Shown one piece after another: positions 3,687 through 46,017 of a DNA stretch of 64,000 nucleotides (position 1 is the first letter of the stretch; every line of letters begins with the position of its first letter). A program made the position numbers and the translations under genes. The notes under the pieces were generated by a model. That model was not told where the DNA came from, made no database searches, and worked only from the letters and a program-made list of their open reading frames with translations. This DNA comes from Candidatus Gastranaerophilales bacterium (GTDB lineage: Bacteria > Cyanobacteriota > Vampirovibrionia > Gastranaerophilales > Gastranaerophilaceae), in assembly GCA_944325705.1 (NCBI GenBank), contig CALVBB010000003.1, positions 1-64,000 of the forward strand, given 5' to 3'.

Positions 3687-3713
3687 AAAAGAGGGTTAAT
3701 CCCCCTCTTTTTT
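3685..3713. terminator. Bidirectional terminator between proC and a prepilin gene
   Basis: The stem AAAAAAGAGGG/CCCTCTTTTTT has a 7-nt loop, with A-run and T-run on either side so it can work for both strands. It overlaps both stop codons. Confidence 0.85.
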
Positions 3714-4476
3714 ACCATTCAAATGTATCACCTATATTGTAATTATCGTACACAAACGGATCTTTCTTATCCATTAAAATATTATTTAAGCTTTGTGTCC
3801 CCATAGCTCCCCATGTGGTATTGCTTATCCTGTCCCTGTAGACATCTAACCCGTAAACATCCCTACCAAACTGGTTTGGAAGTTTATTGCCATTTACATC
3901 AAACACCATTGCTGCACACCTTGCAGAAGTTCGCGTCCAGTAAACAATATTACCATCTTCATCTTTTTTCAATGATCCGTCAGGATTATAGCTTTCTCCT
4001 CGTTCTTCAACCTCTGCACAACCGTTTAGTGTAGAATTAAGTCCGATTACCGCCCCGTTGTTTAAAACTATTCTTGGATAAGCAGCCATATTGGTTATAC
4101 GTATACCATCACCGGAAATAGACTGCTGAAGGGTAGCATATTTAATTGTATAGTTCAAATCTTTGCAACCTTTAGCATTTGTGCCAGCTTCACAAAAACG
4201 TGCCCCGTTGAAATATTTGACAAGTTCTTCTATTACAGCAACAGTAGCCTTATTAGCAGCAAACAAACTGCTGTTATCGCCCGGTGTTCCATATTTAACC
4301 TGTGCAAGTGCCAGAGCCTGATTAATTGATGTATAGGTCTTTTTGACCTGAGTAATCAGTTCACGTTCTTTGTATTTATTGACTAATGCCGGCAGTGTCA
4401 TAGCCGCAACAACCCCGATTATTCCTAAAGTAATCAACACCTCCGCAAGAGTAAACGCAGTATAATTCTTTTTCAT
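3712..4476 (-). CDS. Prepilin-like protein (type IV pilin/pseudopilin), copy A
   Basis: 254 aa. After MKKNYTA comes the class III signal [19 protein letters not shown]; processing is expected just before or within this motif, with the glutamate (LAE) at position 5 of the mature chain, followed by a hydrophobic helix. The globular part holds paired cysteines and the segment MVFDVNGNKLPNQFGRDVYG, shared with other copies here. Expected to be exported by a type IV pilus or type II secretion machine; none of that machine is in the window. It is divergent from an XRE-type HTH gene at 4569 across a 92-bp gap with a palindrome. Exact filament and function are unknown. Confidence 0.9.
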   Translation of the reverse strand: MKKNYTAFTLAEVLITLGIIGVVAAMTLPALVNKYKERELITQVKKTYTSINQALALAQVKYGTPGDNSSLFAANKATVAVIEELVKYFNGARFCEAGTNAKGCKDLNYTIKYATLQQSISGDGIRITNMAAYPRIVLNNGAVIGLNSTLNGCAEVEERGESYNPDGSLKKDEDGNIVYWTRTSARCAAMVFDVNGNKLPNQFGRDVYGLDVYRDRISNTTWGAMGTQSLNNILMDKKDPFVYDNYNIGDTFEW

Positions 4477-5943: not shown

Positions 5944-6576
5944 TTACCACGGGTAATCGTCTGGGAATTCCCATCCGTTTTTATACAGTATTGTCGAACA
6001 GGTAAAATACCCATTACCACCAGGGTTTTGGAGATTGCATCTATAAGATATAAATTCGTCATCTTTATCAAGATATGGCGGTTCAATTTGACCTTTATTA
6101 TCGTTCATCCAGAACCAGAAAACATAACGCGGGCCTTTTGAGCCGCTATAGTCCCAGAATTCACCTTTGTGAACAAGGGGTTTTGTAAGAAATACGCACC
6201 CTAACTTATCATACTCACGTCCGTTAATATGCTTGGAACATGCTGTCTGTGAGCCGTCAGCATAAGTCATGACAACTCCGTCTGTAAAGCTTCCTGTAAT
6301 TTGTACATTTGTCTTTACATCAATTGTTTTTATATATTTTTTTAAATATTTATAATAAAGATCAGACGTATCATCAATCTGCCAGTATTTATATTCACCG
6401 AACTCCAGCTGTGCCTGCTGAAAAGCCTGATTAAACATAGAGTAAAATTTCTTAACTTTAACTGCTGTTACTTTTTTCTGATAATTTCCGACAACAACCG
6501 GCAGAGTCATAGCGGCAACAACCCCTATTATTCCGAGAGTTATCAATACCTCTGCAAGCGTAAATGCTTTTTTCAT
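5944..6576 (-). CDS. Prepilin-like protein, copy B
   Basis: 210 aa with a minimal leader, MKKA, followed directly by [19 protein letters not shown] and then VKVKKFYSMFNQAFQQAQ, the amphipathic end of the pilin helix. The C-terminal domain has several cysteines, a YADGSQTAC turn and the ending GWEFPDDYPW. Several other copies in the window share this D-D-Y-P-W-like tail. The gene is divergent from a small HTH gene at 6721 across an AT-rich gap with two TATTCAAT repeats. It is a probable minor pilin or pseudopilin; its filament is unknown. Confidence 0.9.
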   Translation of the reverse strand: MKKAFTLAEVLITLGIIGVVAAMTLPVVVGNYQKKVTAVKVKKFYSMFNQAFQQAQLEFGEYKYWQIDDTSDLYYKYLKKYIKTIDVKTNVQITGSFTDGVVMTYADGSQTACSKHINGREYDKLGCVFLTKPLVHKGEFWDYSGSKGPRYVFWFWMNDNKGQIEPPYLDKDDEFISYRCNLQNPGGNGYFTCSTILYKNGWEFPDDYPW

Positions 6577-8601: not shown

Positions 8602-8629
8602 TTGAATTTAACACAAAATATGTTATAAT
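8602..8629 (+). promoter_or_regulatory. Promoter of the poly-G prepilin C
   Basis: TTGAAT (8602-8607) and TATAAT (8624-8629, with an upstream TG) have a 16-bp spacer. AAGGAGG follows just before the ATG at 8649. The next gene (D) has a near-copy of the TGTTATAAT...AAAAGGAGGA block. Confidence 0.7.
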
Positions 8630-8648: not shown

Positions 8649-9485
8649 ATGAAAACCATTGATATGATTAAATCTCAGACAGGGGGGGGGGGCAGATACA
8701 GTCTAATTGCAGCTCTCGACAATAATTTTAGCCGGAGCAAACTATACAAACTTGACAGGCGCACAGATTTTTTCAAATCTTTTTCCTTTACGGGCGCGTT
8801 CACTCTTGCAGAGGTGCTGATTACCCTTGGCATTATCGGAATTGTTGCGGCGATGACACTGCCTTCAATAGTCGGACACTATAAAAAACAGGAAATTTGT
8901 ACAAGATTACAAAAATTTGCATCAACAATGCAAAACGCGATAAATCGTTCAACTATTGACAACGGCCCCGCAGAATACTGGGAAACTCCGACTGCTCAGG
9001 ATGATGCCAAAGACGAATTTGTCTCAGAATATATAAAAAAATACATTTATCCGTACTTGACCGGTATTAGAATGTGCGATATTAATGATACCGCCTGTAA
9101 AACTATAGGAAAAACCTTGTTTCCAAACAACGCGTCTCAACAACAGCAGTCCATTTACATATTTGAGGACGGCAGTTGTTTTACAATGTTCTTTGGCGGA
9201 GTATCCACAGCCGGCGGCATGGCACACATAATATACGATTACAATTGTATGAAAAAGCCAAATGAATTTGATAAGGACCAGTTTTCTTTTGTAATAAGCT
9301 ACACATTAGGAAAAAGCGCAAGCTTTAAAGCCGGCAGTCGTTCAACATACAATGTAACAGATCGCGATAAATTGCTCGAACTTTGCAAAAACCACACAGC
9401 AACACACAATGGTGGAGGCTGTACAGCTCTTATTGAATATGACGGATGGGAGATAAAGGACGATTATCCATGGATAACACATTAA
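8649..9485 (+). CDS. Prepilin-like protein with poly-G leader, copy C (in frame)
   Basis: 278 aa. It starts at an ATG directly behind AAGGAGG. The first codons encode [11 protein letters not shown], then an 11-G tract gives GGGG, then a long leader to residue ~50 before [20 protein letters not shown]. The leader is much longer than usual for a class III prepilin signal. The C-terminal part has paired cysteines, a FEDGSCF turn and the ending [13 protein letters not shown]. With G11 the frame is open; a gain or loss of one G leads to a TAA within 16 codons, so the gene looks phase-variable. The neighbour D is a tandem paralogue in the off state. Confidence 0.85.
8682..8692 (+). repeat. Poly-G tract (G11) in the leader of prepilin C
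   Basis: Eleven consecutive G, codons 12-15 of the gene. G11 keeps the prepilin frame; G10 and G12 both hit a TAA soon after. In an AT-rich genome such a run is unusual. Confidence 0.9.
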
Positions 9486-9498
9486 TAAAGGATTAAAG

Positions 9499-9527
9499 TT
9501 GCATATCGACAAATAAAATGTTATAAT
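9499..9527 (+). promoter_or_regulatory. Promoter of the poly-G prepilin D
   Basis: TTGCAT (9499-9504) and TATAAT (9522-9527) are spaced 17 bp apart, and AAAAGGAGGA precedes the ATG at 9547. The layout matches that of prepilin C, so D has its own start signals. Confidence 0.7.
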
Positions 9528-9546
9528 AAAAATAAAAGGAGGAATT

Positions 9547-10286
9547 ATGCAAAGCACAGAAATAGCTTCAAAATCACGTAGGGGGGGGGGGGCTTAACCC
9601 TTAATATCAGAGGGTTTTCAGGTTTTACCCTTGCCGAAATTTTAATTACACTGGGGATAATCGGAGTTGTTGCAGCAATGACACTGCCGGCAATTATTCA
9701 ATCTTATGCAAATTCGGTTGTAGAAACAAGAATGGCAAAATTTTATTCATCCATTAATCAAGCCATCGCCAGAGCAGAAGTTGATTATGGAGATAGAAGA
9801 TACTGGTTTGATGAAAACGCCGGTGTCGGGAGTATTACTAATCCTGATAACGCAAGGCTGGAGTGGTTTAAAAAATATCTGCTCCCATATATGAACGGAG
9901 TTACGTATAAATATTATATGCAAATTCCTATTTTTTATATGCCGGACGGTTCGGCGTTTGCAAGCATAAACGGCGGGGAAGTTAACAGGGACTGGATGTT
10001 CTGGACATCAGATCCTTTAACAAAATGCACAAAATGGAGAACATTAGACGGTTATGATGATATTGGAGTGTGTGCTTTTGCGTTTTATTATTCTCCGGGA
10101 GATGTAATAGAAAAGAACAGAACGTTTGGACTTGAACCATGGAAAGTAAACTGGACAGGCAAAGTTGATGATTTATATGAAAACTGCAAAGATAAAACTT
10201 TGACATATAACCGGCAATGCGGGGCGATCATCCAGATGAACGGCTGGAAAATTCCTAAAGATTATCCATTCAAAGTTCGTTATTAG
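9547..10286 (+). pseudogene. Prepilin-like gene with poly-G leader, copy D (out of frame)
   Basis: From the ATG at 9547 (behind AAGGAGG) the frame reads MQSTEIASKSR, enters a 12-G run and stops at TAA 9595-9597. The prepilin body lies in another frame: [21 protein letters not shown] through to GWKIPKDYPFKVRY at 10286. With 10 or 13 G the two parts join as RRGGGGLTLNIRGFSGFTLAE, giving a 246-residue protein. In the body frame a TAG lies just before the G-run and no ATG precedes the signal helix, so no alternative start rescues it. It is best read as a phase-variable gene caught off; a miscounted homopolymer is the other explanation. Confidence 0.8.
9581..9592 (+). repeat. Poly-G tract (G12) in prepilin D
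   Basis: Twelve consecutive G. This length puts the start codon and the prepilin body in different frames; G10 or G13 would restore one continuous frame. Confidence 0.9.
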
Positions 10287-10631
10287 ACAATCGAATTTTT
10301 CAGCCGTCTGAAATTTAAGTTTCTGATACGTACTGTGAATGTCGATGCCAAGTAATAGTCCGGACTGGTCCGGTGGAAAATTCCTAAAGATTATCCGTTC
10401 AAAGTTCGTTACTAGACAATCGAATTTTCCAGCTGTCTGAAATTTAAGTTTCTGATACGTACTGTGAATGTCGATGCCAAGTAATAGTCCGGACTGGTCC
10501 GGTGGAAAATTCCTAAAGATTATCCGTTCAAAGTTCGTTACTAGACAATCGAATTTTCCAGCTGTCTGAAATTTAAGTTTCTGATACGTACTGCGAATGT
10601 CAATGACTGGAAATGGCCGGACCAGTCCGGA
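10245..10631 (+). repeat. 129-bp tandem repeat, about 2.8 copies, growing from the 3' end of prepilin D
   Basis: Copies start at 10245, 10374 and 10503, exactly 129 bp apart. Each begins with the codons for the last 13 residues of prepilin D (W-K-I-P-K-D-Y-P-F...) plus its stop and downstream DNA. Copies 1 and 2 carry CCGGAC-TG-GTCCGG; at the end of the third, CCGGAC-CA-GTCCGG appears in inverted form where the copy diverges after ~10604. The rest of the gene-free stretch up to 10752 is AT-rich and shows no other feature. Confidence 0.9.
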
Positions 10632-10752: not shown

Positions 10753-10952
10753 ATGTTTACAGCAAGAAACAAAGGATTTACACTCGCAGAAGTTTTAATT
10801 ACGCTCGGAATAATAGGAGTTGTCGCAGCAACAAATTAACCAGAACAGACGCCGTCTATGCCTACAACGCCGTCCAGAGAGGACGCTGGTGTACCACCTT
10901 AATTATGAGCGACGGCTGGCAAATAAAACCTGATTATCTCTGGAGCAACTGA
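10753..10952 (+). pseudogene. Prepilin remnant with internal deletion, copy E
   Basis: MFTARNKG followed by [18 protein letters not shown] is intact with a GAGG site upstream, but the frame then meets a TAA at 10837-10839 (28 codons). Directly after, in another frame, lies a prepilin C-terminus: RGRWCTTLIMSDGWQIKPDY, ending LWSN at 10952. The middle ~170 codons are missing. Either a deletion joined the two ends or the gene decayed after recombination with its tandem neighbours. The last 19 bp overlap the convergent nagA. Confidence 0.85.

Positions 10953-44060: not shown

Positions 44061-46017
<1,957 letters not shown>

Follow-up and report, generated by a model that had tools for sequence, protein, structure and literature searches.

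Neisseria gonorrhoeae harbors many pilin copies (pilE/pilS) with G-rich DNA near the pilin gene, and its surface is subject to variation. In the Neisseria opa genes, CTCTT repeats are located in the leader-coding region of several independent loci (PMC3960869), and the poly-G tracts of Campylobacter show lengths that peak at 9–10 (PMC6321876). For pil1 of Streptococcus gallolyticus, it was shown experimentally that the repeat number sets the length of the leader peptide, the ribosome of which opens a terminator (PMC3894217). For the Gastranaerophilales, gut bacteria that are related to cyanobacteria but do not photosynthesize, a literature search revealed no account of phase variation. Here, a stretch of 64,000 nucleotides (nt) from a Candidatus Gastranaerophilales bacterium (assembly GCA_944325705.1, contig CALVBB010000003.1, positions 1 to 64,000; hereafter the window) was analysed, with special attention paid to D, a prepilin-like gene carrying 12 G residues in its leader. 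It is very probable that D is the OFF allele of a slippage-switched type IV prepilin-like gene and belongs to a large, mostly silent set of genes with exchangeable leaders. The genome of the window, assigned to the genus Scatousia, is denoted G000 and other G numbers stand for related genomes, G023 representing another genus of the same family.

The elements of D are listed in Table 1. The first-pass annotation of this DNA, made from the letters alone, had proposed that the start frame of D halts at TAA 9595 with the body intact in another frame, and both direct reading and a script confirmed it. A TAG just before the G-run, claimed to block other starts, was indeed found at 9579–9581, and the earliest ATG in the body frame (9678) is located only within the pilin helix. 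Scanning of the D product by tract length gave 245 amino acids (aa) for G10, 18 aa for G11, 16 aa for G12 and 246 aa for G13, in agreement with the earlier claim that G10 or G13 restores the protein. Restoration requires +1 G or −2 G, and G11 (−1 G) is still OFF, unlike in most paralogs, which are opened by −1 G. In both D and the neighboring prepilin gene C, a single length class of three opens the full open reading frame (ORF). The promoter and ribosome binding site, described before as intact, were found as the extended -10 TGTTATAAT and AGGAGG; the -35 element is weak, with TTGCAT falling under the -35 threshold of the promoter scan. Seven 9-mer G runs, all from the tracts of C and D, were counted in the window versus 0.01 expected from shuffles, and both tracts are located 33–34 nt past the ATG of a prepilin gene. 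The G-runs at C and D are not a chance occurrence.

The D body scored 19.7 bits against TIGR02532 (prepilin cleavage/N-methylation motif, G/FTLAE followed by a hydrophobic helix), above the cut-off of 16.3, and reached a borderline 21.0 against PF07963, for which the cut-off is 21.2. The head of D matched PF20318 (DUF6613) and the structure model predicted a helix at residues 17–69, with a mean predicted local distance difference test score (pLDDT) of 75. Judged by its motif, the D protein is prepilin-like. Because the predicted prepilin peptidase site follows the part encoded by the tract, a change in tract length would leave the mature pilin unaltered.

A comparison of the D body with five orthologs gave ratios of nonsynonymous to synonymous substitutions (dN/dS) of 0.08–0.18 and revealed no frameshift or stop, so the body is intact and under purifying selection. 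The locus between ilvD and nagA (gene names being a reading of the sequences) is conserved. The D orthologs have ordinary short leaders in G006, G010 and G011, a G11 leader in G002 and a long C-type leader with G12 in G004, which is OFF ahead of the D body and would give 382 aa with one G fewer. In G011, another Scatousia species, the D ortholog with its ordinary leader is adjoined by a syntenic C ortholog. The C leaders of G000 and G011 are 92% identical over 92 nt, with G11 in the ON state in G000 versus G12 in the OFF state in G011. The presence of differing leaders at one syntenic locus (G000, G004, G006 and G011) indicates that leaders were exchanged there. The remnant found just 3' of D is likely a leftover of the ordinary-leader gene that G006 and G011 have at the same position, and this suggests that D acquired its tract leader at this locus.

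Genome-wide, 67 tracts of at least nine G were detected in G000, and 51 of them sit 28–53 nt past an ATG preceded by a ribosome binding site. The leaders fall into a few related types (ME[NK]..SIAR.., MQNT.IASKL.. and MKTIDM..). For 31 of the 51, the frame open from the tract runs into a prepilin, nearly all being OFF as assembled, and some of the remaining leaders precede glycosyltransferase-like genes, named by sequence motifs only. About 55 related pilins are encoded in this genome. The loci were gathered mostly at tracts of at least nine, so shorter locked tracts are under-counted.

Among 94 leaders opening into a prepilin in Scatousia and a few relatives, 70 need −1 G, 19 need +1 G and 5 are in frame (ON), leaving 89 OFF. 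The ON state is depleted versus one third (p = 8e-11, without correction for relatedness). These counts and those of the length pairs below include duplication relatives, which makes them a strong tendency rather than exact probabilities. Shuffling of tract lengths within genomes gave about 44 leaders needing −1 G (observed 70) and about 22 ON (observed 5). Tract lengths peak at 10–12. For the pairs of OFF lengths lying between two ON lengths, the shorter and the longer one were found in proportions of 46:5 (11/12), 14:2 (12/13), 9:5 (10/11) and 0:4 (9/10). Such a length-dependent register preference is as predicted by an equilibrium length near 10–11 combined with selection against the ON state. 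A stealth-type glycan gene with a tract leader was ON in G011 and OFF in G003.

Tract leaders ahead of glycosyltransferase-like or stealth-type genes were noticed at loci L051, L033 and L094 (G000), L187 (G010), L220 (G011) and L162 (G003), and such loci were more often ON (L051, L187 and L220). At L033, one leader frame stops at TGATG across the start of the next gene, suggesting translational coupling.

In the sister genus (G023), the same leader design was found with C on the coding strand (MFNLKNKLVPTPP..), the tract being located 31 nt past the ATG. As loci picked at exactly nine C were a biased sample, C8 and C10 loci were added, giving a set of 40 with 21 ON and 19 OFF. For the TA-type, C8+TA was ON in 15 of 15 loci and C9+TA was OFF in 14 of 16; for the AC-type, C8+AC was OFF in all three loci and C9+AC was ON in four of five. 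Thus, paralogs that have one leader type in one genome are separated by a single C and are in different states. The poly-C on the coding strand also implies that neither a Gly codon run nor a coding-strand G-quadruplex can be the general function, a role that still suits a slippery homopolymer. On this ground, both the Gly-codon attenuator and the G-quadruplex were ruled out as general explanations. Across 40 surveyed genomes of the family, with only the leader pattern covered, ATG-to-G10 units clearly exceeded the reversed-pattern control in about 10 genera, with differing leaders.

A second arrangement was observed in G003 (37 loci), in G012 and at a small number of G000 and G007 loci. There, the tract leader forms a short ORF of its own and the pilin is equipped with a separate start, the two being divided by a short hairpin that has a T-rich tail (e.g., GCCGTGCCAAGTGTCACGGTGATTTTT). 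At most such loci, just one of the three leader frames stops inside or beside the hairpin, the other two stopping 7–18 nt past the tract. The tract leader of this G003 type may be a phase-variable attenuator like that of S. gallolyticus pil1. The G003 hairpins are short and in most copies precede a promoter-like TGTTAAAAT. RNAalifold analysis of the G003 unit indicated pairing of the tract with a downstream CCTCC. A codon-position test on the post-tract ON frame of the G000 and G003 copies showed no third-position excess, so selection on the post-tract peptides is not supported. In the G003 leader units (L101–L185), codons 4 and 5 and a 5-nt island past the tract were hypervariable from copy to copy, with nearly invariant flanks.

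In the proposed mechanism, replication slippage would add or drop single G residues and thereby bring the D body into register with its sole start or shift it out again. At G12, the ribosome would halt just past the tract and no pilin would be made; at G10 or G13, the full prepilin would be synthesized. D shares its design with a set comprising the 31 tract-to-prepilin frames and a few glycosyltransferase-like genes, with common leaders composed of promoter, ribosome binding site, ATG and tract. The switch would be reversible, the restored gene expressed and its product cleaved by the peptidase, and immune or phage pressure may be the cause of the mostly OFF state. The directly seen basis of this mechanism comprises the anatomy, the single-register opening, the purifying selection, the differences in tract and state between orthologs and paralogs and the turnover from poly-G to poly-C.

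If D were a pseudogene frozen by a frameshift, its being out of frame as assembled, the remnant pilin and tandem-repeated tail adjoining it and the truncated copies with interrupted tracts elsewhere in the genome would all fit. However, the D body is open throughout, shows purifying selection and carries no second lesion, the 12-G tract is pure and both promoter and ribosome binding site are intact. The truly decayed copies look unlike D, as the genuinely decayed cassettes (45977–46017 of the window and loci L262–L264) have interrupted tracts and truncated pilins, and tracts broken by substitutions (GGGGGAGGGGGG etc.) were found in locked-OFF or truncated copies. We regard such decay as very unlikely. 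The view of the first-pass annotation that D is in an off phase rather than decaying is well supported by the dN/dS values, the difference in length and state between the C orthologs and the poly-C paralogs, from which we infer the switching of D itself. The pattern it had named as contradicting a switch, G12 fixed in all relatives together with lesions in the body, was not encountered, since the leaders vary and no ortholog body carries a frameshift. Programmed (+1) frameshifting or transcriptional slippage, in which the extra-G state is functional and a fraction of ribosomes or transcripts shifts to give a low pilin level, is slightly less improbable than decay but still very unlikely. It would explain why so many leaders need exactly −1 G and so few need none relative to the shuffles, and the stops on both sides confine the frame overlap to the tract. 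On the other hand, the preferred register shifts with the length pair (the longer length in 9/10, the shorter in 11/12 and 12/13), the other register dominates in the upstream-ORF units of G003, the G023 alleles are half ON and half OFF, and ON alleles exist. The conserved register and the shift in all members that mark a programmed frameshift were not found, the register varying with length class and genus. A four-base-anticodon tRNA-Gly reading GGGG was rejected, as the anticodon loop of the sole tRNA-Gly(CCC) found is of the normal 7-nt size.

D could also act as a silent cassette that donates sequence in pilin gene conversion, or its tract as a G-quadruplex recombination element like that of gonococcal pilE. 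The number of related pilins in the genome and the exchange of both leaders and bodies at one syntenic locus speak for a cassette, and G11 is just sufficient for a two-tier quadruplex. D nevertheless has its own promoter, ribosome binding site and start, the G-strand orientation is not conserved given the C on the coding strand in G023, and a recombination signal needs no single opening length class, yet only one opens the gene. This makes the donor or recombination role somewhat more remote than decay. The least probable of the four, in our judgment, is leader-peptide attenuation, in which the frame of an upstream peptide depends on the tract and the ribosome translating this peptide opens a terminator. 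This fits the pattern of G003, G012 and the few G000 and G007 loci, with their own pilin start, T-tailed hairpin and one frame reaching it. For D, neither a hairpin nor a separate start was found between the tract and the body, and even in G003 the promoter-like element past most hairpins, the shortness of the hairpins and the lack of a third-position signal in the long frame argue against it.

Several observations weigh against D being a slippage-switched prepilin gene. The D structure model gave no match in the PDB at E <0.001. The tract length of D comes from one assembly, and the variation was seen between orthologs and paralogs. All genomes are metagenome assemblies, and the tract lengths are consensus calls, possibly off by one at some loci. 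The fraction of ON leaders (5/94) in Scatousia is far below the one third of random drift and needs selection for OFF or another cause, and D itself is in the minority register. A broader picture is offered only tentatively, as we lean slightly against it: Scatousia would hold a library of about 30–40 pilins, each one base from expression via exchangeable poly-G leaders, with selection leaving no more than one or two of them ON, so that expression is near-exclusive, and with the module either fused in frame to the gene or serving as a phase-variable transcription attenuator.

Table 1. Features of the D locus and of related elements in the window.
Feature	Position	Strand	Remarks
D promoter (function putative)	9499..9527	+	weak -35-like TTGCAT (9499-9504), 17 nt spacer, extended -10 TGTTATAAT (9519-9527)
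D ribosome binding site	9537..9542	+	AGGAGG, read directly
D start codon	9547-9549	+	ATG, read directly
D leader ORF as assembled	9547..9597	+	ATG to TAA (9595-9597), 16 aa, MQSTEIASKSRRGGGA, OFF product
TAG in D body frame	9579..9581	+	just 5' of tract, closes frame to other starts; read directly
G12 tract of D	9581..9592	+	length switch; starts 34 nt after first base of ATG
D prepilin body, open frame	9582..10286	+	stop 10284-10286; GGGGLTLNIRGFSG followed by FTLAEILITLG..., predicted cleavage before F at 9624
Tandem 129-nt copies, three	10245..10631	+	span D 3' end and following spacer; copies 97% and 84% identical to first
Remnant start of ordinary-leader prepilin	10753..10839	+	just 3' of D
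C promoter	8602..8629	+	TTGAAT-16-TATAAT, TG before -10; promoter scan
Prepilin C	8649..9485	+	D-like design, in frame (ON), 278 aa
G11 tract of C	8682..8692	+	ON at G11; G10 = 18 aa, G12 = 25 aa
Decayed switch leader copy	45977..46017	-	ATG 46017, interrupted tract GGGGGAGGGGG (45987-45977), then truncated prepilin

Apart from the genes in Table 1, two more prepilins are encoded on the minus strand of the window (5944–6576 and 3712–4476), both having ordinary short leaders without a tract. Elsewhere in G000, a G12 tract located 36 nt past an ATG opens a 907-aa ORF in frame (L073, contig C15, plus strand). Several G000 tracts are found no more than about 250 nt from a contig end (C1:66, C5:3, C6, C13, C19, C21, C25 and C33) and may be unresolved repeats or length-polymorphic. 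In G043, near-identical ATGGCTGAAACCCTTGTCCTGAGCGGCTTTTC units were found near the ends of contigs C33, C36, C39 and C41, with tracts ranging from G10 to G19 among the copies of one assembly. Some prepilin leaders reach a length of about 170 codons (G023 L355–L368, L024 and the ME[NK]-type of G000); in such leaders, dispersed repeats such as CHSELDSES and LPSPLPRRGN are read as protein before the cleavage motif.

If the proposed switching is true, common but uncultured gut bacteria hold a very large repertoire of switchable pilins, and read counts in existing metagenomes would reveal when and in which hosts these pilins switch. The hundreds of comparable tracts would constitute a natural system for measuring how tract length is determined by selection and slippage, and the same system would show the exchange of leader modules between genes and the change of the repeat base from G to C.

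The closest described system in logic is Neisseria opa, which likewise comprises a family of paralogs, each independently ON or OFF owing to a slippage-prone repeat in a leader that is removed. Unlike opa, the D family has a mononucleotide tract of G or C, a prepilin-type leader and about 30–60 loci per genome; the Scatousia loci are nearly all OFF and their leaders are common to glycosyltransferase-like genes. In the repeat itself, the closest counterparts are the poly-G contingency loci of Campylobacter, with which D shares the surface genes, a gut bacterium of low guanine-plus-cytosine content, single-peaked tract lengths and interrupted tracts in non-variable homologs. In Campylobacter, the tracts are located in diverse surface genes, whereas here one leader design serves a large family of pilins, and the ON state is far less common than expected from drift. 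The G003-type relatives resemble pil1/pil3 of S. gallolyticus in having a phase-variable leader peptide ahead of a pilus terminator, but D is a direct translational fusion with a homopolymer instead of GCAGA and encodes a type IV-like, not a sortase-linked, pilin. In contrast to gonococcal pilE/pilS, each copy here has its own promoter and start, and poly-C can replace the G tract.
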